A DNA stretch of 44,369 nucleotides, taken from contig JAQTNH010000001.1 of assembly GCA_028713895.1 (NCBI GenBank), forward strand, positions 502,610 to 546,978, given 5' to 3'. Shown here piece by piece: positions 18,186 through 41,293 of the stretch (positions are counted from its first letter, which is position 1; the number at the start of each line of letters is the position of its first letter). A program made the position numbers and the translations under genes. The notes under the pieces were generated by a model. It was given only the letters and a program-made list of their open reading frames with translations, ran no database searches and had not been told where the DNA came from. The DNA is from Candidatus Nanoarchaeia archaeon (lineage in GTDB: Archaea > Nanobdellota > Nanobdellia > CSSed11-243R1).

Positions 18186-19124
18186 ATGGATTTGCTCAAA
18201 AAGACAGCAAAGGACATCAAGTCAATAAAGATACAGGGCGCGACAAATTTAGCAGAAGCAGCGATAAAAGCGCTTGAATACACTGCTAAAATATCTAAGG
18301 CAAAAACAAAAAACAATTTTATTTCTGAACTTGAAAAGGCAAAATCACTTCTTTATGCAACGCGGCCTACTGAGCCGCTGATGCGAAATTCACTCAGGTT
18401 TATTGTTGCGAATGCAAAAGAAAGCAAGTTTGAGGACATTGATGATTTGCGAAAGCTTGTTTCAGTTGCAGGCAAAGATGTTTTAAACAAGATTGAGGAC
18501 GCAAAGAAAAAGGTAAGCGAGTTTGCAGGAAACAAAATAGAAAACGGGATGACTGTATTCACGCACTGCCACTCCTCAACTGTGATGGGCGCTTTCAGGC
18601 ATGCAAAATTACATGGGAAAAAATTCAGCGTGATATGCACTGAATCCCGCCCGCTGTTCCAGGGAAGGAAAACTGCAACAGAGCTGGTAAATATGGGAGT
18701 TCCTGTGACAATGATTATTGATTCAAATGTCTCGGCGCACATCAAAAAGGCAGACATGGTCATGGTCGGGGCGGATTTGATAACTTCAGACATGAACTTT
18801 GTAAACAAAGTCGGGACGCAGAATGTTGCATACGGAGCGAAGCGGGTTGGGATACCGCTCTATGTCTGCACTGATTTGGCAAAGTTTGACCCTGAAACAA
18901 TGTTCGGAAAAACCGAGGAAATTGAGCAACGCAGCCCAGACGAGGTTTGGAAAGGTGCTCCAAAGCAGCTGAAGATACTGAATCCTGCTTTTGACTTGAT
19001 GGCAAGAGAACTTGTAACCGCGTATATAACCCAGGAAGGCGTTATCGCACCAGAATCTGTGCTGGACATAATAAATGAAAAGTACTCGTGGATAACATAC
19101 GGGGCAAGCCCAAAATCTATTTAA
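18186..19124 (+). CDS. Ribose-1,5-bisphosphate isomerase (eIF2B-like)
   Basis: A 312-aa member of the eIF2B-alpha/R15P isomerase family, which converts ribose-1,5-bisphosphate to ribulose-1,5-bisphosphate for RuBisCO. Diagnostic motifs: SIKIQGATNLAEAA near 13-26, ATRPTEPLMRNSL, THCHSSTVMGAF (catalytic Cys near 132), TESRPLFQGRKTA, and VGADLITSDM, whose Asp is the second catalytic residue. The motifs favour R15P isomerase over translation factor aIF2B or MtnA. Co-occurrence with RuBisCO and AMP phosphorylase 9-10 kb downstream strongly supports the AMP pathway role. Starts 7 nt after the HAD stop, so probably co-transcribed with it. Confidence 0.93.
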   Translation: MDLLKKTAKDIKSIKIQGATNLAEAAIKALEYTAKISKAKTKNNFISELEKAKSLLYATRPTEPLMRNSLRFIVANAKESKFEDIDDLRKLVSVAGKDVLNKIEDAKKKVSEFAGNKIENGMTVFTHCHSSTVMGAFRHAKLHGKKFSVICTESRPLFQGRKTATELVNMGVPVTMIIDSNVSAHIKKADMVMVGADLITSDMNFVNKVGTQNVAYGAKRVGIPLYVCTDLAKFDPETMFGKTEEIEQRSPDEVWKGAPKQLKILNPAFDLMARELVTAYITQEGVIAPESVLDIINEKYSWITYGASPKSI

Positions 19125-20168: not shown

Positions 20169-20213
20169 CAAACTGCTTATATTTTTGGTTTGAAACCCAG
20201 AACTGAGGACGTT

Positions 20214-23200
20214 ATGATAGAGAAAAAAACCATTTTGGTAGTTTTGGTTCTAATAGCTATTGCTACTGTCATCTCTTGTTCAATGTTTACTGGGCTTGTC
20301 ATAGGAGACAAAAGGGGGATTCAGGAAGAAGGAACCGAGCCGGAACCGTATATTGAGATTACAGCGCCTGAAACTCCAAGCGAGCCTGCTGCTGAAGAAC
20401 AGCCAGCTGAGCCTGAGGAGCCTATAATTCCTCAGGAGAACGTAACAAATGAGGCTCTGCCTGGGGTGCTGAACTTTGGAACAATGCATACAGTGGGAGG
20501 ATGCGCGAATATTACGTTTAGTGATTATTTTACTTTGTCTAACGATTTTGCTGATAACCTCTCAGATGGACGCTGCATTACCATCCAGATTGATGATGTT
20601 GTCATTGACTGCGGCCCATACAACCTGACTTCGAGTTTGCCGACTTCTGTCAACACATATGGCATTTATGTTTCTGGCGCAAGGCATAACGTGACGATAC
20701 TAAACTGCAGCATCTACAATTACAAATACGGGATTTATTTGAATGGCACTGAGAATATTACTGTTGCCAATAATTATCTGGCTGCGAACTCTTTTGGACT
20801 CTATGCCGACAATGCAGATTACTGCAACTTTACGGATAACAGGGCGAATTCAAACACATGGGGCTTTGATTTGAATTCAAACTCGGATTACTGCAGACTT
20901 GTGAACAACACGGCAAACTCAAATTCCCAGATAGGATTCTTTTTGGATAATACGCATTACACTGATTTTATAAATAACACGGCAGATTCAAACACCGATG
21001 CCGGTCTGGCTCTTACAGTTGCCCAATACAATACAATTACAGGAAATAATCTTTCCAATAACTCGCATGGCATCCAGGCTTCTGCGACCTCGAGTCATAA
21101 TACGTTCAATAGCAATACAATGACAAATAATACCAATGAAGGTACCCTGATGGAGTTTGATTCAACAAATAATTCGTTCACGAACGATAACATAACATCA
21201 ACTACAGGCTGGGACTTTTCTACAGATAACGGGACTGACACTGCAGCGACAAATATGCTGATGGGAACCACTTATGCGAGCTTTACTATGCGCCCAGATT
21301 CTACGCTTAAGGTCAGGGGAGCTTCAGCGCCTTCAGGCGGAGACCCTACCGGCTACGCGAACATAGGCAAATATCTGAACATAACAAACGGAACAGCAGA
21401 CGCGTGGATTTATATTAATGTTTCGTACAGTGATTCAGATATCGCTACTATCACAGAAGACAGCCTTCGAATATGGAAAAACTCGAGCGGGCAGTGGTGG
21501 AACTCAACTTATGTCGGACCAACAGCGCAGGCTGGTATCGGAACGAGATTGGTACTAGGCGCAGATAGCGCAATCCAAGTATCTGCAGGAGGACATCATA
21601 CCTGCGCCCTTCTTAACAACGGAAACATAACCTGCTGGGGTTATAACATAGAAGGACAAGCAGAGAATTACACACAAGGTGATGCAACTCAAGTATCAGG
21701 GGGCGGACATTACACCTGCGCCCTTCTTAACAACGGAAACATAACCTGCTGGGGATATAACTCGGATGGACAATCAAATAATTACACACAAGGTGATGCA
21801 GCCCAAGTATCCGCGGGAGGGTACCATACCTGCGCCCTTCTTAACAACGGAAACATAACCTGCTGGGGAAATAACTTTTATGGACAATCAAATAATTACA
21901 CAGAAGGGGATGCAACTCAAATATCAGCTGGAGAAGCTCATACCTGCGCCCTTCTCGACAACGGAAACATAACCTGCTGGGGACATAATGATTACGGACA
22001 ATCAGAGAATTACACACAAGGTGATGCAACTCAAGTATCCGCAGGACAAGAATATACCTGCGCCCTTCTTAACAACGGAAACATAACCTGCTGGGGAAAT
22101 AATGATTACGGGCAATCAAATAATTACACGCAAGGGGGCGCGACTCAAGTATCTGCGGGAGGGTACCATACCTGCGCACTTCTTAACAACGGAAACATAA
22201 CCTGCTGGGGTTACAATGATAACGGACAAGCAGAGAATTACACGCAAGGAGACGCGACCCAAGTATCCGCGAGAGAAATTCATACCTGCGCCCTTCTTAA
22301 TGATGGAAACATAACCTGCTGGGGATATAACGCGGATGGGCAATCAAATAATTACACGCAAGGAAACTGTGACAGGATAGATTATGTTTACGCAAACATA
22401 ACAAATTTCAGTTCGATTTATGCACCAATGGGCGGACTGGATTCATGCAATCTTAATGCAGAATATACTCTCACAGAAAATCTTGTATGCAATGCAGGAA
22501 TGAACATATCCTTTAACGGAAAAATGAATACAGACGGATATAATGTTACAGTATTTGGGGATACTGGTATTTACGGAGAACTAAATGCAACAGAAGACAC
22601 AGCCATAAATTTGAGCGATGGAGATGTTTATGTATACGATGAAGGAACTCTTGGCTCAAACGACTGGACAGGAAACTTGTATCTGGACACCGCATACATT
22701 GAGGATGGCGGAACACTGGATGCAACCAGCGGACTGATTTACGTTTACAACTCGATTGAGCTTAACGGGACTTTTAATTATAACAACGGCAACATGAGCA
22801 TAAATGGTGTTTACGCAAGATTTGCAAGCGCGAACAATGTCAGAATTGGAGTAGCTGGAGAAATTCCGTCTGATCAGTTACACTATCAAAACATAGGTTA
22901 CTATGTAAATATCACAAATCTTACCCCTGGAGGTGGGATTGGCTTATTCAACATAACTTATACAGATGAAGATACAGACAATGAAGCAAATCTTTCAATG
23001 TGGAGATACAATGATACAGACTGGACACAAGACGGAATCAGTGCAACTGGTGTGAATGAAACAGATAATTATGTCTGGGCAGACATAGCCCAGTTCAGCG
23101 TGTTTGCTCCAATGGAGTACACCCCGATAATACTTGTAACCAACTGCATGAACCTGACAGAAAGCAATTCAATTTATAAATTAGACAACAGCCTTTCAGG

Positions 23201-26200
23201 CACCCAGACAAATAAAAGATGTATTGACATACAAGCAGACGATCTTATTTTGGACTGCGATGTTTACAGCCTGACAGGTTCACATCTTATAAACACCATT
23301 GGGATTTATGCGTCTGACCGAGACAATATAACAATCCAAAACTGCACCGTGAACCATTATAACTATGGTATAGACCTGTTTTCATCATCAAACAGCAGGC
23401 TCATTAATAACACAGCTTATTCAAATGCCTATTCAACAAGTACTGGAACCGGAATTTATCTCAGCGCATCGTCATACAACAACATCACAAACAACAATGC
23501 CAGCTCAAATAGAAACTACGGAATCTCCCTTGACTCATATTCAAGCAGCAACACTCTCACAAACAACACAGCCAATTCAAACATCCTCTATGGAATCTAC
23601 CTTGACCGCAGCTCAAGCAACGCTCTCACAAACAACACAGCCATCTCAAATTCTAACAGCGGAATCTGCACTTATCGTGACTCAAACAGCAATACCCTCA
23701 CAGATAATACAGTCAGTTTGAATACGAACTATGGAATCTATCTTTATTCAAATTCAGACAGCAACACCCTTATAGACAACAATGCCAGCTCAAATTACAA
23801 GCATGGAATATATCTCTACATAGTTTCAGACAACAACATCATAAACAACACAGCCATCTCAAATTCTAACAGCGGAGTTTACCTCACAGACGCAGACAGC
23901 AACACCCTTACAGACAACAATGCCAGCTCAAATGCGAACTACGGAATCTCCCTTGAATCAGCTTCAGACAACAACATCATAAACAACACAGCCAACTTGA
24001 ATACCTATTCCGGAATCTATATCTACTCAAGCTCAAACAGCAACGCTCTCACAAACAACACAGCCAATTCAAACACTAACAGCGGAATTTACCTTTACTT
24101 ATCGTCTATATACAATACCCTCACAAACAACACAGCCAATTCAAACAGTTACGGAATCTACACCTATTCAGATTCAGACCATAACACCATCACTAGCAGC
24201 ACAGCAATAGGCAATGGTGAAGGGATTAGATTAGAAACCGACTACAACAATCTTACAAGCAACACTGTATCTGACAGTGGTAACTACGGAATCCGTATCT
24301 TTGGCAGCTCCAATAATGTTCTGTATAACAATAACGCAAGCTTAAATGATTGGGACTTTTATTCTGCATACTTTGACAATGACGGCTCTATAACATATTC
24401 GACAGGCAACAAAATAATAAATCTGACAACGAATAACACAGTTTCAAGCTTCACATACTCAGGGGACATTTATCTTAGGGCTGCAACAGCGCCTTCAGGT
24501 GGGGACTTGGGCGGATATTCAAACATAAGCCACTATCTTGAGATTACAGATGGGGGTTATGGCTCACTGATAGAATTAAATGTATCCTACCTAGACTCAG
24601 ACATACCTGCAGCCATAGCAAATAAGTCCGCCATAAAGATATGGAAGCACGTAACTGGTGCGTATGATTACACCTATCAAGAAGACGCGAATGCAACAGA
24701 CAGCAGCGGTTCATGGACTGATTTGGCAAATGTTTCGGACGGAGACTGGACTAATTATGGATACAGTTCTTCAGGTTTAGCATACTTCTATGCTAACTAT
24801 TCCAAACCTGCAGGCGCAAGCCCTGATTATTCGAAATGGCAGGCTGAAGATGATGACGGAACCTATAATCTCAGCATACCAACTGACTGCTGGAACCAGG
24901 ATGTTCTGCAGTTCAGAGTAACTTCAGATTTTGATTCAGATTATGTAAACTGGAGCTGCTATAACGGTGGGTCATATCAGGACATATCTGCGTATGGTCT
25001 CTCTTATGCTTATGAAGAAGCAATGTACTGGGCTTTTGCTAATTGGACTGATAATGTCGGAACACCCAATGCAATAGACCAGACAAATAAAGTTGTGCGT
25101 GCGAATATCTCAAACTTCGGAAGCATATTTGCGCCGATGGGGCCCGAATCCTCATTAATAAGCATAACTGGCTGCGACAACCTATCAACAGATAACACAG
25201 ACTATGTACTAATCAACAATATTACAAACAGGCAGGTGGGGTTTGAATGGTGCATTTTCATCAATTCAAGCAACATAACTTTGGATTGCGGCGGATACAA
25301 TATAACCGAAATTACCGTGCCCGCAGGGAATTCGTACGGCATATACGCCAATAACTCGGACAATGTTACCATCCGGAACTGTTCTGTAACAGATTATGAT
25401 TCCGCAGACATCATTGTGTCAAACTCCAATGAGTTCGACATCAGGGATTCAAACGCAATAAATTCAGGCTCTGGCATACTTTACGGCGACTCAACAAACA
25501 GCACAATTTCAAATGTGATATCAGGTAATTCTTCAAACGGGATAGAGATATATAACAGCGTTAATATTACTGTTGAAAACAGCGCATCCAATGATAATAC
25601 GTATATAGGGATAACAATCTCAAATTCATCCTACTGCAGCTTAACAGGAGATACAGCGAATAGAAATCCGCAAGTCGGCATTTTGATGCAATCAGCCATA
25701 AACAATACAGTAACCAACAATACTGCCAATGACAACAGTTTTACTGGATTCGCGCTCAACACTGTTGAGCCTACCATATACTGTTATGGAAACAACTTTA
25801 CAAATAATAATGCTACTAACAACACAGCGTGGGACTTCCAGTTGACAGGGAGCTCATATGGCAATCTGATTATAAATCTGACAACCAACAACACGCTTTC
25901 AAGCTTCACTTCTGTGGGAGACTTCGGGTTTAAATCAGCAACAGCGCCTGCAGGCAACCCGCCAGGATATTCGGACATAGGGCAATACCTTAACATATCA
26001 AATGACACTCCTGCGTGGGTTTACATTAATATTTCGTATGCTGAGGCAACTCCGACAGATGAATCTGCGCTTAAACTGCAGAGATGGAATGGCACGGACT
26101 GGAACCTGGTTTCTGGTTCAGGCGTCAACATAACAAAGAACTATGTATACGCAAACATAAGCGAGTTCTCAATATTCGCGCCAATGGAAGAGCCTCTTTT

Positions 26201-27950
26201 GTCCACATTCAGTTCAGCAAGTGTCAATGACACAAATCACAACATAAACGCGAAATATTCAATTAATGTTACAGATGCGGACGGATTGTCCTATTGCTCT
26301 GTTGAGCACAACAATACGGGCTCATTTGCAAATACAAGCTTCACTGCGCTGAGCGGGACATCTGCCTGGTGCAACATCACTGTACTGAATAATGATTCAA
26401 ACGACAGAGTTGTCGGATGGTATGTCTATACAAATGATTCAATTGGAACGTGGGCGCGTTCATCACTGCAGACGTTTACAACAACAAACACAGTTCCGAC
26501 ACTGACATCAGTCTCATCGAATGTTACAAACATAACAGAAGGGACTGCGGTCGGGCTAACCAGTTCGGGCGCAGATGATTTCAATGCCGATATTTTGAGA
26601 CTTGAATGCGGATACTCAAACGGAGCTGTTGACGCCTGCGCCGGGACGTACGGCTCTGGAGAGCGGACATGCACGTTAACGTGGTCATTTGATGATAACG
26701 AGAACCACACATTATACTGCAGGCTAAATGACAGCTACGGAGTTTCAACACCTGACTTTGAACTGAACATAACAGGATACACCCTGCGCTTCATAATTTC
26801 AGTACAATCACCATTAAACAATTCACACCACAATTCAGCAGATTTGTGGTTCAACATGACACTAAACAAGAATGCAAGCGCATGCCTGGTAAGCATTGAC
26901 GGGAATGCAAACACAACAATGGGCAACTCAACTCCAACATCATGGTACAATTATACAACAGGAATCCCAGAGGACAGCCATAATGTTACGTTCTGGTGCA
27001 ATAAGTCTTACAGCCCTGATGAGAATGACAGCAAAACAGCATATTTCACAGTTGATTTGACCCTGCCTTTTGTTAACATAACCCTGCCATTGAATCTTGC
27101 AACAGTAGCATCCAGCACAACAAATGTACACGCTGTTGTAAACGAGCCTGCATCCGCGTGCACAGCAGAATTTGACAGCAGTTCAAATACAACAATGACA
27201 AACTCAAGCGGGGACTGGAATGCCGACACAAGCCTTTCAAACGGAAACCACAACGTGAAAGTCTATTGCTCTGATTTGGCTGGAAACTGGAATGCCAGCG
27301 AGACTGTTTCGTTCACTGTAGCAATCCCGGCAACCACTGGCGGGGGCGGAGGAAGTTCAGGACTGCGCCCAAACATAACAGTCAGTGAAATAATAGACAA
27401 GCTTGGATTTTATGTATACCTTGACAACCTGATGGCAAATGTCAGATACAACTTCCCTTACGTGTGGCCTTCAGATTTGAGGATAACCTCAATGAGCTTT
27501 GACAAAAATATCCACAATGATACATTTGTTGCGCATGCAAAAGACAGTTCAACTGTAAATGCTCCGACAGGAAATGTATACAAATACTTTGAGTTTGATT
27601 CCAGCGGGCTGACAGCAAATGTTACAGGAGTAACATTCGAATTCAGAAACACAGTTGAGTGGCTTGAATTGACAGGAACAAAAGTCCAGAACATGAAGCT
27701 TTATGCTTATGACGGGATAACATGGCGTGAATTATATACAACTGTTGAAGAAAGCGAGGGAACTTATGTTTTGTTCAACGCAACAGACAACAGTCTGTAC
27801 GAACTTTATGCTATAGCTGAATCCGGGGCTGCAGCGGAGAGAACCACATTCCTGCAGGTGGTGTACACAATCGAAAAATATTATAACAACGAGATAGGAT
27901 TCACTGATGTGCTGAGCGTGATATCAGACTATTATACGCAAAACAAATGA
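20214..27950 (+). CDS. Giant mosaic surface protein (beta-helix, RCC1-type and Ig-like modules)
   Basis: A 2,578-aa secreted protein. N-terminal hydrophobic signal (residues 6-30) and a Pro/Glu linker are followed by a NosD-type right-handed beta-helix (about 159-330), seven 38-aa RCC1-type repeats (457-722, each with HTCALLNNGNITCWG-like core), a second long beta-helix (about 1040-1395), a third (about 1715-1880), Ig-like domains (about 2000-2370) and a C-terminal domain resembling PGF-pre-PGF (about 2385-2530). No clear C-terminal membrane helix is seen. Asn-X-Ser/Thr sequons are extremely dense, so heavy N-glycosylation is likely. A closing motif like FSIFAPM recurs four times. Adhesion or host contact is plausible. 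ATG 20214 with GAGG upstream is preferred over TTG 20190. Confidence 0.9.
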   Translation: MIEKKTILVVLVLIAIATVISCSMFTGLVIGDKRGIQEEGTEPEPYIEITAPETPSEPAAEEQPAEPEEPIIPQENVTNEALPGVLNFGTMHTVGGCANITFSDYFTLSNDFADNLSDGRCITIQIDDVVIDCGPYNLTSSLPTSVNTYGIYVSGARHNVTILNCSIYNYKYGIYLNGTENITVANNYLAANSFGLYADNADYCNFTDNRANSNTWGFDLNSNSDYCRLVNNTANSNSQIGFFLDNTHYTDFINNTADSNTDAGLALTVAQYNTITGNNLSNNSHGIQASATSSHNTFNSNTMTNNTNEGTLMEFDSTNNSFTNDNITSTTGWDFSTDNGTDTAATNMLMGTTYASFTMRPDSTLKVRGASAPSGGDPTGYANIGKYLNITNGTADAWIYINVSYSDSDIATITEDSLRIWKNSSGQWWNSTYVGPTAQAGIGTRLVLGADSAIQVSAGGHHTCALLNNGNITCWGYNIEGQAENYTQGDATQVSGGGHYTCALLNNGNITCWGYNSDGQSNNYTQGDAAQVSAGGYHTCALLNNGNITCWGNNFYGQSNNYTEGDATQISAGEAHTCALLDNGNITCWGHNDYGQSENYTQGDATQVSAGQEYTCALLNNGNITCWGNNDYGQSNNYTQGGATQVSAGGYHTCALLNNGNITCWGYNDNGQAENYTQGDATQVSAREIHTCALLNDGNITCWGYNADGQSNNYTQGNCDRIDYVYANITNFSSIYAPMGGLDSCNLNAEYTLTENLVCNAGMNISFNGKMNTDGYNVTVFGDTGIYGELNATEDTAINLSDGDVYVYDEGTLGSNDWTGNLYLDTAYIEDGGTLDATSGLIYVYNSIELNGTFNYNNGNMSINGVYARFASANNVRIGVAGEIPSDQLHYQNIGYYVNITNLTPGGGIGLFNITYTDEDTDNEANLSMWRYNDTDWTQDGISATGVNETDNYVWADIAQFSVFAPMEYTPIILVTNCMNLTESNSIYKLDNSLSGTQTNKRCIDIQADDLILDCDVYSLTGSHLINTIGIYASDRDNITIQNCTVNHYNYGIDLFSSSNSRLINNTAYSNAYSTSTGTGIYLSASSYNNITNNNASSNRNYGISLDSYSSSNTLTNNTANSNILYGIYLDRSSSNALTNNTAISNSNSGICTYRDSNSNTLTDNTVSLNTNYGIYLYSNSDSNTLIDNNASSNYKHGIYLYIVSDNNIINNTAISNSNSGVYLTDADSNTLTDNNASSNANYGISLESASDNNIINNTANLNTYSGIYIYSSSNSNALTNNTANSNTNSGIYLYLSSIYNTLTNNTANSNSYGIYTYSDSDHNTITSSTAIGNGEGIRLETDYNNLTSNTVSDSGNYGIRIFGSSNNVLYNNNASLNDWDFYSAYFDNDGSITYSTGNKIINLTTNNTVSSFTYSGDIYLRAATAPSGGDLGGYSNISHYLEITDGGYGSLIELNVSYLDSDIPAAIANKSAIKIWKHVTGAYDYTYQEDANATDSSGSWTDLANVSDGDWTNYGYSSSGLAYFYANYSKPAGASPDYSKWQAEDDDGTYNLSIPTDCWNQDVLQFRVTSDFDSDYVNWSCYNGGSYQDISAYGLSYAYEEAMYWAFANWTDNVGTPNAIDQTNKVVRANISNFGSIFAPMGPESSLISITGCDNLSTDNTDYVLINNITNRQVGFEWCIFINSSNITLDCGGYNITEITVPAGNSYGIYANNSDNVTIRNCSVTDYDSADIIVSNSNEFDIRDSNAINSGSGILYGDSTNSTISNVISGNSSNGIEIYNSVNITVENSASNDNTYIGITISNSSYCSLTGDTANRNPQVGILMQSAINNTVTNNTANDNSFTGFALNTVEPTIYCYGNNFTNNNATNNTAWDFQLTGSSYGNLIINLTTNNTLSSFTSVGDFGFKSATAPAGNPPGYSDIGQYLNISNDTPAWVYINISYAEATPTDESALKLQRWNGTDWNLVSGSGVNITKNYVYANISEFSIFAPMEEPLLSTFSSASVNDTNHNINAKYSINVTDADGLSYCSVEHNNTGSFANTSFTALSGTSAWCNITVLNNDSNDRVVGWYVYTNDSIGTWARSSLQTFTTTNTVPTLTSVSSNVTNITEGTAVGLTSSGADDFNADILRLECGYSNGAVDACAGTYGSGERTCTLTWSFDDNENHTLYCRLNDSYGVSTPDFELNITGYTLRFIISVQSPLNNSHHNSADLWFNMTLNKNASACLVSIDGNANTTMGNSTPTSWYNYTTGIPEDSHNVTFWCNKSYSPDENDSKTAYFTVDLTLPFVNITLPLNLATVASSTTNVHAVVNEPASACTAEFDSSSNTTMTNSSGDWNADTSLSNGNHNVKVYCSDLAGNWNASETVSFTVAIPATTGGGGGSSGLRPNITVSEIIDKLGFYVYLDNLMANVRYNFPYVWPSDLRITSMSFDKNIHNDTFVAHAKDSSTVNAPTGNVYKYFEFDSSGLTANVTGVTFEFRNTVEWLELTGTKVQNMKLYAYDGITWRELYTTVEESEGTYVLFNATDNSLYELYAIAESGAAAERTTFLQVVYTIEKYYNNEIGFTDVLSVISDYYTQNK
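21582..22379 (+). repeat. Seven tandem 114-bp RCC1-type repeats
   Basis: Seven 38-codon units within the giant surface gene share a nearly identical core (for example TGCGCCCTTCTTAACAACGG) while their edges differ, mostly in the residues around Gly-Tyr-Asn. High identity at silent positions suggests recent expansion or gene conversion. Seven blades match the seven-bladed propeller of RCC1-like proteins. Confidence 0.85.
23480..24200 (+). repeat. Degenerate tandem repeats encoding beta-helix rungs
   Basis: Units of about 22-24 codons recur around ACAAACAACACAGCCA and GGAATCTA, each encoding one rung of a NosD-like beta-helix (pattern LTNNTANSN...YGIYL). Copies are diverged but clearly related. 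Confidence 0.7.
27140..27211 (+). repeat. 72-bp segment identical to 42944-43015
   Basis: This stretch in the Ig-like region of the giant surface gene is base-for-base identical to a stretch in the second surface gene about 15.8 kb away. Flanking sequence remains related for about another 100 bp with many silent differences. Confidence 0.85.
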
Positions 27951-27970: not shown

Positions 27971-29221
27971 ATGAACAAGGAATATCTGCCCTATGTCAGT
28001 CTTGGGTACAGGCCCTCGAAAAGTGATTTAATCTGTAAATTTTATTTTGAACCCGCAAAAGACTCCTCGCATACTGAAGCAGCCGGAGCAATTGCTGCAG
28101 AAAGTTCTACAGGCACATGGACAGAACTCACCACAATAAAGCGTGAAACAAGAGTAAATCTTGGCGCGAAAGTTTTTGAGATAAACAACAACACCTGTAA
28201 AATCGCTTATCCCGCCGAACTGTTTGAGCCAGGGAATATGCCGCAAATATTTTCTTCCATTGCAGGAAACATTTTTGGGATGAAAGAGATAAACAACTTA
28301 AGGCTTCTTGACATAGACTTTCCAAAAAAGATTGCTGACTCGTTCAAAGGGCCCCTGTATGGAATCCAAGGGGTAAGAAAATTAACAGGCATCAAAAAAA
28401 GGCCGCTGGTCGGCACAATAATCAAGCCCAAGCTGGGATTGAATGAGAAACAGCATGCAAAAGTTGCATATGAAGCGTGGGTCGGAGGGCTTGATGCTGT
28501 TAAAGATGACGAGAACCTTTCATCGCAGCCATTCAATAACTTTTACAAACGCGTTGATGAAACACTGAAAATGAAGAGGAAAGCAGAAAAGGAAACTGGC
28601 GAACATAAAGTTTACATGTGCAATGTAACCGCAGAAACAAAAGAAATGCTGAAGCGCGCAAAATACCTGAAGGATTCCGGAAACGATTACCTGATGGTTG
28701 ACATCCTGACTGTAGGGTGGGCTGGGCTGCAGACACTCAGGGATGAAATGGACAGGCTGAAACTTGTAATGCACGGGCACAGGGCAATGCATGCCGCACT
28801 TACAAGAAACCCGAAACACGGAATCGCAATGGATGTGATTGCAAAAGCATCCCGCCTTGTCGGGCTGGACCAGCTCCATATCGGGGCCGGCATAGGCAAG
28901 ATGGAAGGCGATGTAAAAGAAGTGCAGGAGCTCGTTCATGTTTGTGAAGACAAACTTTACAATGTCAAGCCAACATTTGCTGTGTGTTCCGGAGGACTTT
29001 ATCCAGGGACAATACCTGCCCTTGTAAAACTTTACGGAAAAGACATAATCATCCAGGCTGGCGGTGGAGTGCATGGAAATCCATTCGGCACCCGCGGCGG
29101 CGCAACCGCGATGAGAGACGCTGTTGACGCAGCAATGTCAGGCAAGAATATTTATGATTACGCAAAAAACAAAAAAGAGCTGAAAGCAGCACTGGACAAG
29201 TGGGGTGCAGCGCATGTTTAG
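27971..29221 (+). CDS. rbcL: RuBisCO large subunit, archaeal form III
   Basis: A 416-aa enzyme that carboxylates RuBP to two 3-phosphoglycerate. Conserved residues are intact: ESSTGTW (N-terminal Glu), SIAGNIFGMK (Asn), GTIIKPKLGL (Lys152), VKDDEN with the carbamylated Lys at 178, MHGHRAMHAA (His), HIGAGIGKMEG (His, loop-6 Lys), CSGGLYPG (Ser-Gly-Gly) and QAGGGVHGNP. Length and the lack of a small-subunit gene fit form III, used in AMP recycling rather than the Calvin cycle. ATG 27971 follows a GGTGAGGT ribosome-binding site. The stop overlaps the AMP phosphorylase start by 8 bp, so the two enzymes are translationally coupled. Confidence 0.96.
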   Translation: MNKEYLPYVSLGYRPSKSDLICKFYFEPAKDSSHTEAAGAIAAESSTGTWTELTTIKRETRVNLGAKVFEINNNTCKIAYPAELFEPGNMPQIFSSIAGNIFGMKEINNLRLLDIDFPKKIADSFKGPLYGIQGVRKLTGIKKRPLVGTIIKPKLGLNEKQHAKVAYEAWVGGLDAVKDDENLSSQPFNNFYKRVDETLKMKRKAEKETGEHKVYMCNVTAETKEMLKRAKYLKDSGNDYLMVDILTVGWAGLQTLRDEMDRLKLVMHGHRAMHAALTRNPKHGIAMDVIAKASRLVGLDQLHIGAGIGKMEGDVKEVQELVHVCEDKLYNVKPTFAVCSGGLYPGTIPALVKLYGKDIIIQAGGGVHGNPFGTRGGATAMRDAVDAAMSGKNIYDYAKNKKELKAALDKWGAAHV

Positions 29222-30710
29222 ATTAACAGTCAAGCACATTGATGTTGAAACTGGCGGTATGCCCATAGTCGCCCTTAACGAGACTTTTACAAAGAAAAAC
29301 GATTTACATATGATGGACAGGGTAATGCTCAAGACAGCACACAACAAAAAGATTGTGGCTGCCATAGACACTTCTGAAGAGATGATTGCCCCGAGCGAGA
29401 TAGGATTGTTCGAAGAAGTATGGAAAAAGATTGATACGAAAGACGGGGATATTGTTGAGGTTGAGCCAATAGGAAAGCCAATCTCAATAAAGTTCATACG
29501 CAAAAAGATGGACAAGGAAGAACTTGTCCACGACGAAATAAACCAGATAATACAGGACCTTGTGGAAGACAAGCTCACTGATGTTGAAATGGCTGCTTTT
29601 GTTTCAGCGTGCTACATGAACGGCCTGAGCCTTAGCGAGACTGAACATCTTACACGGGCGATTGTTGACAGCGGAGGCAGGCTCAACATAAAGAAAAAAC
29701 CCATACTCGACAAGCACTGCATTGGCGGAGTTCCGGGAAACAGGACAACAATGGTTCTTGTGCCCATCATAACATCGCTCGGGCTTACAATGCCAAAGAC
29801 ATCAAGCAGGGCAATAACATCGCCTGCCGGAACCGCAGACACAATGGAAGCGCTGTGCAATGTGAACTTCTCAATAAAAGAGCTTGAAGAAATTGTCAAC
29901 AGGGTGAACGGATGCATTGTCTGGGGCGGAGCAATAAATCTTGCAGCCGCAGATGACAAATTAATCAAGATAAGGCACCCGCTGTCTCTTGACCCCGAAG
30001 GCATGATGATGGCGTCAATACTCGCAAAAAAGATAGCGGTCGGAGCAACGCACATAATCTTTGATTTGCCAATAGGCGAGGATGCGAAGGTGCACTATCT
30101 TGGCGAAGCACGACATCTTGAGAGAGAATTCAAAAACCTTGCGGACAAGTTCAAGCTTAACATCAAGACTGTTGTTACAGACGGAAACGAACCAATCGGA
30201 AGAGGGATAGGGCCCAATCTGGAAGCAAGAGATGTGTTATGGCTGTTAAAGGGAGACAAAAAATCGCCGATGGACCTGCGCGAAAAAGGGATATTCCTTG
30301 CAGGAGAGCTACTCGAGCTTGCAGGAAAAGCGCCAAGCGGAACAGGGAGACAGATAGCTGAAAAGCAGCTTAAGAGCGGGGCTGCATACAAGCAGATGCA
30401 GAAGATAATTGAAGCGCAGGGCGGAAATCCAAATATAAAACCAGATGACATCCCTGTAGGGGAATACACTATTGACTATGATGCAGAGCGTTACGGCACG
30501 ATTAATGTTTTGAGCAACACAGCCATCTCAAAAATAGCCAGGACTGCAGGCGCGCCAGCAGACAAAGAAGCGGGCATTTATCTTTACAAGCGCTATGGAG
30601 AAAAAGTAAAACAGGGAGAAAAGATATTTACAGTTTACTCAAAATCAGAGAGGAATATCGAGAGGGTCGTACAGATAATAAAAGAGCTTAATCCTGTTGT
30701 AATCAAGTGA
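29214..30710 (+). CDS. deoA: AMP phosphorylase
   Basis: A 498-aa thymidine-phosphorylase-family enzyme of the archaeal AMP phosphorylase group (TIGR03327 type): AMP plus phosphate to adenine plus ribose-1,5-bisphosphate. Motifs: KHCIGGVPGNRTTMVLVPI, SSRAITSPAGTADTMEAL, GGAINLAAADDKLI and DPEGMMMASILAKK. The N-terminal extension of about 85 residues (beta-barrel-like) separates it from bacterial thymidine phosphorylase. ATG 29214 lies inside the end of rbcL and has GGGGTG upstream; GTG 29205 is less likely. It feeds R15P isomerase and RuBisCO encoded in the same cluster. Confidence 0.95.
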   Translation: MFRLTVKHIDVETGGMPIVALNETFTKKNDLHMMDRVMLKTAHNKKIVAAIDTSEEMIAPSEIGLFEEVWKKIDTKDGDIVEVEPIGKPISIKFIRKKMDKEELVHDEINQIIQDLVEDKLTDVEMAAFVSACYMNGLSLSETEHLTRAIVDSGGRLNIKKKPILDKHCIGGVPGNRTTMVLVPIITSLGLTMPKTSSRAITSPAGTADTMEALCNVNFSIKELEEIVNRVNGCIVWGGAINLAAADDKLIKIRHPLSLDPEGMMMASILAKKIAVGATHIIFDLPIGEDAKVHYLGEARHLEREFKNLADKFKLNIKTVVTDGNEPIGRGIGPNLEARDVLWLLKGDKKSPMDLREKGIFLAGELLELAGKAPSGTGRQIAEKQLKSGAAYKQMQKIIEAQGGNPNIKPDDIPVGEYTIDYDAERYGTINVLSNTAISKIARTAGAPADKEAGIYLYKRYGEKVKQGEKIFTVYSKSERNIERVVQIIKELNPVVIK

Positions 30711-35908: not shown

Positions 35909-36547
35909 TTACAGTTCTTTTAAGATTTCCCTTAAGTCAGTTATTACGTAGTCGGCATCAGACTTTTCTCTGGCTTTTGTAAAGAGGTATGTGGTTGCAC
36001 CAACAGATTTTCCTGCTTTTATGTCGCTCTCTTTGTCGCCAATATTGACTACTTTTGAAAATTTCTTGTTCTGTAAATATTTATTCAATGCATCTGATTT
36101 GCGTCTGACTACATCCATGTTGTCTGATATGTCGTAAACTTCAATTATTGCATCAAAGAAGCTTTTTAGGCCAACAGATTCTGCGAACTCAGCGGCACGT
36201 TTAGGCTCAGTGTTTGTTAGCAATACATTTGTGTGGTCCTTGGACTTTATTGTTGAAAGAACTTCCTTGGCATAGTCCATAGGCTTTATGTATTTTTTTG
36301 AGACTGGCCTGCTTAATTCAATTGAACGAGAGCACATAGTTTTGATAATGTTTCCTGTAACATTTGGAGCGAGATGTCTATAATATTCATTCCAGCTGAG
36401 GCCGTACAACTCGCGCGTTTTCTCTATAGAAATGCTATTATTTACGCCGAATTCCTTAATTACCTGATTGCAGATTGCCTGGACAGCATACTCGTTGTCC
36501 TTTTCAAGAACACCGTGAAAGTCCCAGACAAACAATATATTTTCCAT
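35909..36547 (-). CDS. HAD-superfamily hydrolase with DFH motif I, directly downstream of a tRNA gene
   Basis: A 212-aa HAD protein: motif I FVWDFHGVLEKD with nucleophile Asp9, alpha-helical cap (about 18-85), motif II VLLTNTEP, a motif III Lys in VVRRKSDA and motif IV VNIGDKESDIKAGK. The acid/base Asp expected two residues after Asp9 is His11. A His there could act as a different general acid or indicate a non-phosphatase activity. The ATG at 36547 is just 2 nt from the 3' end of the tRNA-Ala gene, so the mRNA may be released by tRNA 3' processing and be translated leaderless. No separate promoter is obvious, since the -26 position lies within the tRNA T-arm. Confidence 0.85.
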   Translation of the reverse strand: MENILFVWDFHGVLEKDNEYAVQAICNQVIKEFGVNNSISIEKTRELYGLSWNEYYRHLAPNVTGNIIKTMCSRSIELSRPVSKKYIKPMDYAKEVLSTIKSKDHTNVLLTNTEPKRAAEFAESVGLKSFFDAIIEVYDISDNMDVVRRKSDALNKYLQNKKFSKVVNIGDKESDIKAGKSVGATTYLFTKAREKSDADYVITDLREILKEL

Positions 36548-36549
36548 AA

Positions 36550-36666
36550 TGGACTGGGAGGGATTTGAACCCTCAGTCTTCCGCGCACTCGGTATCCCAT
36601 GCGAGGCGGACGCTCTATTACCCCACTATCCAATCCGGATTAGTGTCCGGGTTGAGCTACCAGCCC
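36550..36666 (-). tRNA. tRNA-Ala (anticodon CGC) with two introns
   Basis: The 117-nt gene folds to a standard 74-nt tRNA after removing two introns. Acceptor GGGCTGG pairs with CCAGTCC, including the G3-U70 pair that identifies tRNA-Ala; the discriminator is A and CCA is not encoded. Intron 1 (29 nt, 36618-36646) interrupts the D-loop after GG; intron 2 (14 nt, 36586-36599) is at the canonical site after position 37. Each gives a 3-nt bulge, 4-bp helix, 3-nt bulge structure (ACCC/GGGT and CTCG/CGAG). The mature D-loop is AACCCGGTA, the anticodon stem TCCGC/GCGGA, the T-arm GAGGG/CCCTC. Anticodon CGC at 36601-36603 reads GCG codons. Confidence 0.93.
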
Positions 36667-37548: not shown

Positions 37549-40500
37549 TTAAAGATGACAGGTTTCACATCCGCCCGAATATTCTGCGTCAACTGTGAAC
37601 TTTGATATATCAGGCTGCGGCGCTCCTTTTGGAATTTCGCGTTCGATGTTTAGCACCTGAACATCACGGCTGCCATCTCTGTATATTGTAATCCCCTTGC
37701 ATCCAAGCTTGTAAGCGAGCAGGTAAACTTTTTCCACGTCGCTTGTTGTAGCTATGAACGGGAAGTTCACTGTCTTTGAAACTGCGTTGTCTGTATGCTT
37801 CTGGAATGTCGCCTGCATCATTACATGCCATTCAGGAGAAATATCAAGCGCAGTGACAAATGTTTTTCTGACATCTTCAGGTATATTGTCTATGTTCTGC
37901 ACCGAGCCTTTTCGCGCAATTTCCTTCATCAGGTCATCGCTGTAAAATCCCCTGTGCTTTGCTATGTCCTCAAACATCGGGTTGACTTCGAGCAATTCTG
38001 TGTTGCCGTCGAGGACACCCCTTCGCACATATGAAACTGCAAACAGAGGTTCTATCCCGCTTGAGCATCCTGCAATTATGCTTATTGTACCAGTTGGTGC
38101 GATTGTGGTGACTGTTGCATTTCGCATCTTCACTCCCAGCTTTTTGAACACGCTTTTCTCCCAGTTCGGGAATACTCCGCGCTCTTCTGCAAGCTCGGTT
38201 GACATTTTGTGGCCTTCCTGGTTTATCACGTGCATTATCTCATCTGCAATTGCAACGCCCTCGTCTGAGCTGTAGGGAATGCCCATCTTGATGAGCATGT
38301 CTGCAAATCCCATGACTCCAAGCCCGACTTTCCTGTTTGCTTTTGTCAGGTCTGCTATCTGCTGCAATGGATACTTGTTCATGTCAACAACATTGTCAAG
38401 GAACCGCACTGCCAAGCGGACTGTTTCTTTTAGCTTGTTCCAGTCAACAGCATATTTTCCCTTGTGCTCGCCAATCATCTTTGTGAGATTTATCGAGCCA
38501 AGATTGCAGGATTCAAAAGGCAACAAAGGCTGCTCACCACAATTATGGACTACAATCCCATTTGCAATAAACGAGTGCGTAACAGGTTCAGTTAAATCAT
38601 AAACCTCCTGTTGGCCCTGTGGTTCTATCGAAACGATCCGGTCCTCAAATTTTGTGTTGTAAAAATTTATTTTTTTCAAATGTTCAATTTTGTCTTTGTT
38701 TTTTGTGCAAATAAATCCCACCTTTGATAGAAAGACAGGAATCATATTCTTGCATATCTGCAATTCAAACAAAATTCCATCTGATTCGTACAGCCTCATT
38801 TCCCCACGTATTGTTTTGTACCTAAACGTGATTCTCTTGTTTCTATGTCTTTCGTATATCTTTGATTTTATTCCAAGATTCAACAGCAGAGCCTGTGTTC
38901 CTTTGAGTAGCTTTTCAGATTTTGAACTAAGCCGTATGTAATTTGTGTTTTTGCTGTTGTTTGCAGCAACAGTTCCGTCTGCTGTAAATAACCCCTGCAG
39001 GAATCCTGTTACTGCTTCTTCTGTGGCTGAGTACAACGATGCAGGCACTTCTTTTTCAGACGCTCTGACTGGTTTAACACCCAATCTTTTGAAGAATTCA
39101 ACAAAATCTTTTGAATGGTATGACAAGTGAGTCACAGTGTCTTTCCTGATAACTTCTTTTATTTCCCTGCCATACAGCTTATTTATCTTTGGCTTAATAT
39201 ATTCAAGAATGTCTGAATCACCATTGCCAAATGTGAAGCCTACTCTGCAATTTTTGCCTTCCCTTATCCATCCATCTCCCACTAAAAGGCCAAGAGTTTG
39301 TCCAAGTTCTTTTGACCACTCTTTTGCGTAGGATACATCCCTGTGAATTCTTTTATCTTTGCTGAAATTTCCGTTCCCAGACTGGATAAGCACGTAGTCC
39401 CTAATAGAGAGGTTACCCAATTCCTTCCATCCTTCTGTTGTGAGAATCTTGTGGTCCTTTGTTGCAGTTAGTTCGTAACCTGATTCGGTTATAATCCTGA
39501 AAGTGTCTTTTATCCCTGTTTTGATAACCTGGTTTATTCCCTGCATGGAAACTCCTTTTTGTAGCATTAATGTGCTTCCATTTTCTACAATTGTTCTGTT
39601 GTCTGTAACTACATTCACATCATTGTAATTGTTGGCAAGCTCTTTTATTGGAATCAAACCTCTGCTTGTTGACACGAGTGTATCACCAACAACACAAGGG
39701 TTAGTGCTTTCAACCAATCCTACTTCAGGAGTGGGGTTTGCCTTGTTCATGCTGTCTATAAAAACAACTCCAGGCTCACCATTTTTCCATGCAAGAGTCA
39801 CAATAAGATTGAAAACTCTTCGCGCATTTAATTTCTTGACAACCTGATTGTTGCGCGGATTAACAAGCTCGTAGTCATCATCTTCCTCGACCGCTTTCAT
39901 GAACTTGTCTGTTATTGCAACTGAGATATTAAAATTGTTAAGCTCTCCCTCGCGCTCCTTTGAAACAATGAAGTCAAGAATATCAGGGTGGTCAATCCTG
40001 AGCATTCCCATGTTTGCGCCGCGCCTTCGCCCGCCCTGCTTTACAACCTCTGTTGCGGCGTTGAAAACCTTCATGAATGAAATCGGGCCGCTTGCAACAC
40101 CCATTGTTGATTTCACACGGTCGCCTTTCGGGCGGATGCGGGAGAATGAAAATCCAGTGCCGCCACCGCTCTGGTGAATCAGGGCTGTGTGCTTTACAGC
40201 GTCAAAAATGCTTGTCATGTTGTCTTCTACAGGAAGAACAAAACAGGCAGACAGCTGCTGCATATCTGTGCCTGCATTCATTAGCGTGGGAGAGTTTGGT
40301 ACGAACTCCATCTTGGATATCATATTATAAAATTTGTCTGCAACTTCAGTTGAGTCTGCATTTCTGTTGTACAACAGCTCTGCCTGGGCTATGTTGTCTG
40401 CCACACGGCGAAAAAGCTGGGCAGGAGATTCTATCACCTTTCCAGACTCATCTTTTTTCAGATACCTCTTTTCAAGAACAGTAACAGCATTCAGCGGGAG

Positions 40501-40836
40501 CTTGAGCTCGTCCTGCACCCCAAGCATTGCTTTTGCCTCGCGGAGCTCTGCGCGCTTCTGCCTGTAAAGGATATATGCTTTTGCGGTTTTAGCATGCCCT
40601 TCCTCAATTAAAACCTTTTCCACAAGGTCCTGAATCTGCTCTACATCAGGGACTGTATGCCCGTCAAACTTCTGATTTGCAAGTTCTTCAACTTTTCTTG
40701 CAAGTTTCTCAGCTGCGTTTCTGTCCTGCCCTCCGACTGCGACAGCCGCCTTGAAAATTGCGTTTACAATCTTCTCATGGTCAAAATCAACAATTCGTCC
40801 ATCACGTTTTTTTATTTTTGTAACAACATTACTCAT
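37549..40836 (-). CDS. nrdJ: Class II (B12-dependent) ribonucleotide reductase with intein
   Basis: The 1,095-aa precursor yields a 710-aa reductase after a 385-aa intein is spliced out. The N-terminal ATP cone (TKIKKRDGRIVDFDHEKI) is followed by the radical barrel: SACFVLPVEDNM with the first redox Cys, HQSGGGTGFSFSRIRP, NPCGEQPLLPFESCNLGS with the thiyl-radical Cys, and APTGTISIIAGCSSGIEP. The C-terminal GGCETCHL supplies the redox pair. Absence of an adjacent small subunit and linkage with cobO indicate class II. ATG 40836 is preferred over TTG 40845 because NrdJ proteins start near VVTKIKKRDG. It overlaps nrdR by 8 bp. Confidence 0.96.
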   Translation of the reverse strand: MSNVVTKIKKRDGRIVDFDHEKIVNAIFKAAVAVGGQDRNAAEKLARKVEELANQKFDGHTVPDVEQIQDLVEKVLIEEGHAKTAKAYILYRQKRAELREAKAMLGVQDELKLPLNAVTVLEKRYLKKDESGKVIESPAQLFRRVADNIAQAELLYNRNADSTEVADKFYNMISKMEFVPNSPTLMNAGTDMQQLSACFVLPVEDNMTSIFDAVKHTALIHQSGGGTGFSFSRIRPKGDRVKSTMGVASGPISFMKVFNAATEVVKQGGRRRGANMGMLRIDHPDILDFIVSKEREGELNNFNISVAITDKFMKAVEEDDDYELVNPRNNQVVKKLNARRVFNLIVTLAWKNGEPGVVFIDSMNKANPTPEVGLVESTNPCVVGDTLVSTSRGLIPIKELANNYNDVNVVTDNRTIVENGSTLMLQKGVSMQGINQVIKTGIKDTFRIITESGYELTATKDHKILTTEGWKELGNLSIRDYVLIQSGNGNFSKDKRIHRDVSYAKEWSKELGQTLGLLVGDGWIREGKNCRVGFTFGNGDSDILEYIKPKINKLYGREIKEVIRKDTVTHLSYHSKDFVEFFKRLGVKPVRASEKEVPASLYSATEEAVTGFLQGLFTADGTVAANNSKNTNYIRLSSKSEKLLKGTQALLLNLGIKSKIYERHRNKRITFRYKTIRGEMRLYESDGILFELQICKNMIPVFLSKVGFICTKNKDKIEHLKKINFYNTKFEDRIVSIEPQGQQEVYDLTEPVTHSFIANGIVVHNCGEQPLLPFESCNLGSINLTKMIGEHKGKYAVDWNKLKETVRLAVRFLDNVVDMNKYPLQQIADLTKANRKVGLGVMGFADMLIKMGIPYSSDEGVAIADEIMHVINQEGHKMSTELAEERGVFPNWEKSVFKKLGVKMRNATVTTIAPTGTISIIAGCSSGIEPLFAVSYVRRGVLDGNTELLEVNPMFEDIAKHRGFYSDDLMKEIARKGSVQNIDNIPEDVRKTFVTALDISPEWHVMMQATFQKHTDNAVSKTVNFPFIATTSDVEKVYLLAYKLGCKGITIYRDGSRDVQVLNIEREIPKGAPQPDISKFTVDAEYSGGCETCHL
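38542..39696 (-). other. Intein with LAGLIDADG endonuclease inside nrdJ
   Basis: A 385-residue in-frame insert splits the catalytic motif NP/CGE. Splicing motifs: first residue Cys in CVVGDTLV, block B GYELTATKDHKILT, C-terminal VYDLTEPVTHSFIANGIVVHN region ending His-Asn, followed by the +1 Cys of the host. Both LAGLIDADG helices look intact (LGLLVGDGW near 136 and LQGLFTADG near 233), so the endonuclease may be active. Confidence 0.95.
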
Positions 40837-41293
40837 CCTTAACACCCCTCTTGAGCTCTTTTAGTTCTTTTTCGAATGATTTGATATTATCAAATGAACG
40901 GCACACAGATGCAAAACGCAGGTAAGCAACCTTGTCAAGCATTTTAAGCTTTTTCATCACAAGCTCTCCAATCAGCGTGCTGTTAACGCGCGGAGAACTT
41001 CTCGCCTGAAGTTTCGCCTCTATCCAATTCACAGTTGCGTCAATCTTGTCGTTAGGAATATCCCTTTTTTCGCACGCTTTTAATATCCCGTTCTTTAATT
41101 TTTCCTTGTCAAAAGACTGGAGCGAACCGTCTTTCTTGACAACAGTGAGCCCCATGTTCACTATCTGCTCGTATGTTGTAAAGCGCTTGCTGCATTTCAG
41201 GCATTCCCTGCGGCGCCTATTAATATTTCCGTCAGAAGTGGCCCTTTTGTCAATAACCTTTGTTCCATCATGCATGCAGAAAGGACAATTCAT
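40829..41293 (-). CDS. nrdR: Transcriptional repressor NrdR
   Basis: A 154-aa regulator that senses ATP/dATP through its ATP cone and represses ribonucleotide reductase genes. N-terminal zinc ribbon: CPFCMHDG and CLKCSKRFTTYE with the RRRREC basic patch; ATP cone from about residue 47 (VVKKDGSLQSFDKEKLKNG). The frame is open for 17 codons further upstream, but MNCPFC is the family start and has AGGGTG 8 nt upstream, so ATG 41293 is chosen. It leads the nrdR-nrdJ-cobO-DUF1858 operon. Two candidate NrdR boxes sit in its leader, implying autoregulation. Confidence 0.95.
   Translation of the reverse strand: MNCPFCMHDGTKVIDKRATSDGNINRRRRECLKCSKRFTTYEQIVNMGLTVVKKDGSLQSFDKEKLKNGILKACEKRDIPNDKIDATVNWIEAKLQARSSPRVNSTLIGELVMKKLKMLDKVAYLRFASVCRSFDNIKSFEKELKELKRGVKDE

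Follow-up and report, generated by a model that had tools for sequence, protein, structure and literature searches.

The window, i.e. the whole 44,369-nucleotide stretch of DNA analysed here, carries a tRNA-Ala(CGC) gene at positions 36550..36666. The preliminary description gave its sequence and coordinates correctly, but the gene actually lies on the minus strand, with its 5' end at 36666 and the discriminator A at 36550. The gene was described as yielding a normal 74-nt tRNA only when a 29-nt and a 14-nt intron are both removed; our own parser and ARAGORN confirmed that the 117-nt precursor gives a 74-nt mature tRNA, discriminator A73 included, in exactly this way.

All the parts of the gene are read on the minus strand. 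Exon 1 (36647..36666) contains the 5' strand of the acceptor stem, positions 8-9, the 5' strand of the D-stem and the D-loop up to G19. Intron 1 (36618..36646; 29 nt) interrupts the D-loop at position 19/20. Its central helix pairs 36652-36649 (ACCC) with 36623-36620 (GGGT), with the bulges GG^A and AA^T, and the 5-bp inner stem reported earlier is indeed present (36645-36641 with 36628-36624). Exon 2 (36600..36617) includes the end of the D-loop, the 3' strand of the D-stem, the 5' strand of the anticodon stem, the anticodon CGC (36603-36601) and A37. Intron 2 (36586..36599; 14 nt) occupies the canonical position 37/38, and its central helix pairs 36605-36602 (CTCG) with 36591-36588 (CGAG), with the bulges CA^T and TG^C. 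Exon 3 (36550..36585) provides the 3' strand of the anticodon stem, the variable loop, the T-arm, the 3' strand of the acceptor stem and A73. Outside the tRNA, an ORF for a HAD-like phosphatase (35909..36547, minus strand) has its ATG 2 bases past the tRNA end.

After both splices, the mature tRNA-Ala(CGC) is GGGCTGGTAGCTCAACCCGGTAGAGCGTCCGCCTCGCACGCGGAAGACTGAGGGTTCAAATCCCTCCCAGTCCA, which folds into a complete cloverleaf. The acceptor stem GGGCUGG/CCAGUCC is paired at 7 of 7 positions, including G3:U70, the D-stem at 4/4 and the anticodon stem at 5/5. The spliced sequence keeps A14, G18G19, A21 and the T-loop TTCAAAT, and the restored D-loop reads, in standard numbering, A14 A15 C16 C17 C17a G18 G19 ^ U20 A21. 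The G3:U70 pair is the main alanine identity pair, and it occurs in the spliced sequence together with the alanine anticodon CGC. G3, upstream of the D-loop intron, and the anticodon agree independently. The corresponding GCG codon is used 175 times among the ~12,600 codons of the window's genes.

Both introns had been described as bounded by exact 3-4-3 bulge-helix-bulge (BHB) motifs. The geometry holds, both central helices consisting of 4 Watson-Crick pairs between two 3-nt bulges, but the motifs are not both complete. Beyond its central helix, intron 2 has only a 7-nt loop (GGGATAC) without inner helix, i.e. a bulge-helix-loop, and intron 1 shows an A.A mismatch between the 3' bulge and the D-stem. 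Neither intron thus belongs to the complete hBHBh' class with outer helices on both sides, which is a strict sub-class only. Both are of the relaxed types (BHL or HBh') that have likewise been described in archaea.

Several other genes of the window deserve mention. A ribonucleotide reductase ORF of 1098 aa (37549-40845, minus strand) contains an apparent intein (CVVGDTLVS...IVVHNC). Three apparent enzymes, a ribose-1,5-bisphosphate isomerase (18186-19124), a form III RuBisCO (27971-29221) and an AMP phosphorylase (29205-30710), would make up the archaeal AMP pathway. A secreted protein of 2586 aa (20190-27950, plus strand), with parallel-beta-helix-like and RCC1-like repeats, is possibly a surface adhesin.

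Detection of the gene and rival readings of the locus

Our parser required acceptor and T-arm pairing and considered all sets of at most two BHB-bounded introns, without using the earlier coordinates. Its best solution contains the same two introns as the earlier reading. When the D-loop intron is shifted by one nucleotide, its central helix scores only 2.0, and the other boundaries tried score lower. With default settings and no introns, ARAGORN missed the unspliced gene altogether and recognised the doubly spliced sequence as a full tRNA-Ala(cgc). The real gene scores 31.3, a value that none of 1,500 shuffles of its interior reached, the highest being 23.6. As a control of the D-loop intron, the 38-nt D-loop region was subjected to dinucleotide shuffling 20,000 times, a comparable intron being defined by 4 Watson-Crick pairs, at least 5 inner pairs and a restored D-loop. 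Such an intron appeared in 0.065% of the shuffles. A looser BHB alone arises in 20% of them, so the significance of the D-loop intron comes from its inner stem and perfect helix.

From these features of the sequence, the locus is very probably a tRNA-Ala(CGC) gene that is functional, present in a single copy and interrupted by two archaeal introns of the protein-spliced type. Its transcription, cleavage at the predicted bulges, ligation and charging are what we infer from this. Two aspects of the motifs count against this reading, namely the A.A mismatch by the 3' bulge of the D-loop motif and the lack of an inner helix in the 14-nt intron. A second intact tRNA-Ala(CGC) had been named at the outset as a case that would speak against it, and BLAST of the mature tRNA against its own genome, a 1.07-Mb draft that is 89.5% complete, found none, with otherwise only partial matches to other tRNAs. 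A second copy in the unsequenced part of this draft is possible, and tRNA-Ala(TGC) might read GCG codons without tRNA-Ala(CGC).

Fragments of tRNA genes do occur in this genome, as an orphan tRNA-Ala 3' part (contig C1, 809107-809128) illustrates, and the gene could likewise be a decayed pseudogene or tRNA fragment, with a D-loop insert that is mere damage and no mature product. We consider this very improbable: the stems and the tertiary nucleotides are all intact, a BHB of the quality seen in 0.065% of shuffles delimits the insert, no other CGC copy was found and GCG codons are in use. It is slightly less probable still that the tRNA starts inside the D-loop intron, at 36631, with the 14-nt anticodon intron as its only intron and an upstream part that is not tRNA. 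This is where ARAGORN placed its match when an intron was allowed or the anticodon intron alone was removed, and the sole Rfam match to the unspliced gene designates the same alternative (82-87 nt for these matches), at 23.4 bits and thus below the 29-bit gathering score. The acceptor stem obtained from this start (GGATAGU/CCAGUCC) nevertheless has 2 mismatches and lacks G3:U70, and the D-arm is poor, while the sequence farther upstream gives a perfect 7-bp acceptor stem with G3:U70, U8-A9 and a perfect D-stem. Finally, although the D-loop segment can form its own hairpin, its retention as an enlarged D-arm, with removal of the anticodon intron alone, is the least credible reading, since G18G19 and A21 would be set apart in a 38-nt D-loop, for which no parallel is known, and since a normal loop likewise requires the removal of a D-loop BHB intron in two tRNA-Gln genes and tRNA-Gly(TCC) of the same genome.

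tRNA introns and a dispersed hairpin element in the family

Combining the parser and inspection by hand, we found introns in about 23 of the 38 tRNA genes of the window genome, i.e. about 29 introns in total; boundaries are approximate, set by eye or loosely, for the anticodon intron of tRNA-Trp and for the single introns of tRNA-Asn, -His, -Ile(TAT) and -Tyr. This load is close to that of Thermoproteales (0.84 introns per tRNA gene) and far over the archaeal mean of 0.21 (PMC8450103). Besides tRNA-Ala(CGC), D-loop introns are present in tRNA-Gln(TTG), tRNA-Gln(CTG) and tRNA-Gly(TCC), and tRNA-Met(CAT) has introns at 31/32 and 37/38. Two introns with perfect BHBs interrupt the tRNA-Trp(CCA) gene (L230, minus strand, C1 ~272822-273070), one of 31 nt in the acceptor stem (3/4) and one of 30 nt at 24/25, and the gene also has an anticodon insertion, which is longer. 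Possible C/D-box motifs were noticed in this insertion.

The tRNA-Ala(GGC) gene (L036, minus strand, C1:809142-809263) has introns at 33/34 and 37/38. Its second BHB (TTGG/CCAA) scores 0 before removal of the first intron and shows 4 Watson-Crick pairs afterwards; splicing must therefore be ordered. The orphan tRNA-Ala 3' part mentioned above, with the sequence upstream of it, directly follows this gene, and a copy of the hairpin element described below comes next; the orphan part is either a fragment or a split-tRNA half. The window genome also encodes a tRNA-Leu with the anticodon AAG (L018, C1:876912-876995), A34 anticodons being unusual in archaea.

Among the sister genera of the family, introns in the D-loop are frequent and mostly follow its second nucleotide, and there are several tRNAs with three introns, one of them in the T-loop. 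The T-loop of tRNA-Glu(CTC) carries a 65-nt intron in genome G005 and is intact in G001 of the same genus (L196 vs. L231), while the other two introns of this tRNA are common to both. D-loops with two introns each were seen in tRNA-Glu(TTC) of G003 and tRNA-Gln(TTG) of G004 (L085 and L124).

The two introns of tRNA-Ala(CGC) differ in their distribution among the relatives compared: the anticodon intron has counterparts, whereas the D-loop intron was seen only in the window genome. At position 37/38, tRNA-Ala(CGC) carries a 13-nt intron in G028 and a 12-nt intron in G037 (another family of the same class), with 4 Watson-Crick pairs, and is intron-less in G001 and G003, of the same family as the window genome, and in G031. 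A pattern search for the anticodon intron in 38 genomes returned 2 matches outside the window genome, which resemble chance matches in coding sequences. This distribution suggests that the D-loop intron was gained in this lineage, within a family rich in tRNA introns. The length of the 14-nt intron had been taken to indicate a relaxed endonuclease. This argument fails, as lengths of 11-129 nt are published for archaeal tRNA introns, most medians falling at 12-25 (PMC4090602), and introns of 12-13 nt occupy the same site elsewhere in the class. That a DPANN genome has a tRNA with two introns, including a D-loop intron, is supported: in the named collection, the relatives of argS are mainly Woesearchaeota and Nanoarchaeota (41-49% identity). 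The accompanying statement that multi-intron tRNAs are known mainly from Thermoproteales and a few other archaea was incomplete, such tRNAs being already known in N. equitans and ARMAN-1/2 (PMC4033280).

Many tRNA introns of the family contain a hairpin of ~40 nt, N4-C-CTTTCTT-loop-AAGAAAG-C-N4', with a conserved C.C mismatch; neither intron of tRNA-Ala(CGC) contains it. Its consensus fold was obtained from nine introns of equal arm length, a MAFFT alignment of 24 mixed introns giving none. The outer pairs covary, with 10 cells in which both sides are changed, and none of 500 shuffles was as high. After the hairpin comes a second purine tract, a potential pairing partner of the same 5' arm. 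With a covariance model (R1), we detected 29-74 copies per genome in the better-assembled members of the family, namely the window genome (G000), G001, G003 and G005, and 5-8 copies in the drafts G002 and G004 (E <= 0.01), compared with 0-8 copies in the other genomes of the class (E <= 0.001). Wherever inspected, the copies in tRNA introns are in the sense of the tRNA (e.g. L038, L231, L196, L188-L197). Many of the copies inspected in the window genome are outside tRNAs, either intergenic, beside tRNA genes or in frame in two ORFs. The latter resemble FtsY (L178, 601-641; peptide KTSLSSEESLEGKKP) and MBF1 (L179, 601-641; peptide KISLSSKESLKGKKA), names that come from our reading of the sequences. 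The FtsY-like ORF has a further similar stretch (EVSLSSEDQ...SLKGKK).

The hairpin element, which we take to resemble the Rickettsia palindromic elements, would be a source of mobile introns. Tentatively, and with less than even confidence, the invasion of the family's tRNAs by introns could have been driven by this dispersed hairpin with its two alternative 3' arms, and been tolerated because a loopless alpha-type enzyme with an Arg/Trp clamp excises anywhere; the introns of tRNA-Ala(CGC) would then be older element-free introns or decayed ones. As part of the same doubtful scenario, the element would insert intergenically, in protein genes (in frame) and in three loops of tRNAs (D, anticodon and T).

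Splicing endonuclease and predicted processing

We searched for splicing endonucleases with PF01974 (catalytic domain) and PF02778 (N-terminal domain). Each gave one match in the window genome, in the same gene, which is the sole splicing endonuclease gene found in this genome and encodes an alpha-type enzyme of 181-188 residues (L041). No second subunit was found by these searches in the window genome, G001 and G003. Two different alpha-type genes are present in G004 (L147 and G004:C21:1776-2036), a draft with 3% contamination, the extra gene being either a second subunit or contamination. The window genome has one gene for the RtcB ligase.

L041, a single gene of ~180 residues, has both EndA domains (N- and C-terminal) and the triad Y117, H127 and K158, as an alpha-type enzyme does. 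It is collinear with the alpha4 enzyme of M. jannaschii (1A79) over its full length (171 residues), without insertion. Broad-specificity enzymes possess an additional loop that bears a key lysine, namely K44 in A. pernix and K161 in ARMAN-2 (PMC6379350). In our alignment, this CSL/ASL insertion is absent at residues 36-46 of L041, where S. tokodaii has 11 and ARMAN-2 (K161) 7 additional residues, and it is also absent in the five relatives aligned. The bulge is bound by an Arg+Trp pair in the broad types and by two arginines in alpha4 and alpha'2 enzymes (PMC12397907). R151 and W178 of L041 align with R275 and W384 of ARMAN-2, and W178 is invariant in the six aligned sequences. Thus, the classification of the enzyme as a single alpha-type protein without CSL/ASL leaves a specially relaxed endonuclease unsupported, though the Arg+Trp pair is present.

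According to the literature, genomes with alpha4 or alpha2 enzymes have few introns, located at the canonical position (PMC4090602), and the alpha4 enzyme of the nanoarchaeon Nst1 cleaves canonical introns only (PMC4033280). This description of the enzyme type as canonical-only counts against a tRNA-Ala(CGC) gene with a spliced D-loop intron. Conversely, the predicted intron set of the window genome argues against a canonical-only cutting rule for alpha4 enzymes. L041 may itself be broad, or merely tolerant of BHBs at any position. Although the length argument fails, the question of a relaxed specificity is still raised by the relaxed forms of the motifs and the odd positions.

For tRNA-Ala(CGC), the precursor would fold so that each intron presents a 4-bp helix flanked by bulges. 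The alpha-type endonuclease L041, as a homo-oligomer, would cut within the bulges, and RtcB (L176) would join the exons. The product would be a tRNA whose D-arm and anticodon loop are normal and which reads GCG codons.

Taken alone, tRNA-Ala(CGC) is a further case of a known type; what is new is a loopless alpha-type endonuclease beside many non-canonical introns. According to the accepted rule, tRNA introns at odd positions appear only after a broad-specificity endonuclease, with an extra loop or a second subunit. In the present family, introns occupy the D-loop, the acceptor stem, the anticodon stem and, in the sister genera, the T-loop, and only a single loopless alpha-type enzyme was found. 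At the genomic level, the family is a counter-example to this co-evolution rule: either alpha-type enzymes as a class are not as strict as is taught, or another feature is enough, be it the Arg/Trp pair or an unseen partner. In addition, the pairs of intron presence and absence between close species bear on how tRNA introns spread.

Comparison with known systems

The multi-intron tRNAs of Thermoproteales (Sugahara 2008; Fujishima 2010; reviewed in PMC4090602 and PMC4033280) are the first term of comparison. They also have 2-3 BHB introns per tRNA, in the anticodon loop and at non-canonical sites (D-arm, T-arm, 3/4), and similar introns common to several tRNAs. However, Thermoproteales are Crenarchaeota, whose reported enzyme is of the (alpha beta)2 type and carries the CSL loop, whereas the present genome is of DPANN type with one loopless alpha-type gene, and copies of the intron sequence shared in the present family are also scattered outside tRNA genes.

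N. equitans and ARMAN-1/2 are likewise small DPANN-type archaea with non-canonical or multiple tRNA introns. Their endonucleases, (alpha beta)2 in N. equitans and epsilon2 in ARMAN-2, are both broad, compared with the alpha-type enzyme here. N. equitans also uses split tRNAs, none of which is shown in the window genome.

Korarchaeum cryptofilum combines a homodimeric alpha2 endonuclease with non-canonical tRNA introns, and was described as the only alpha2 archaeon to do so (PMC4033280). Its enzyme has the specificity loop, unlike L041. Finally, the catalytic Tyr, His and Lys of the M. jannaschii enzyme (1A79) are kept in L041, while the M. jannaschii enzyme has a Tyr where L041 has W178, the residue aligned with Trp384 of ARMAN-2.
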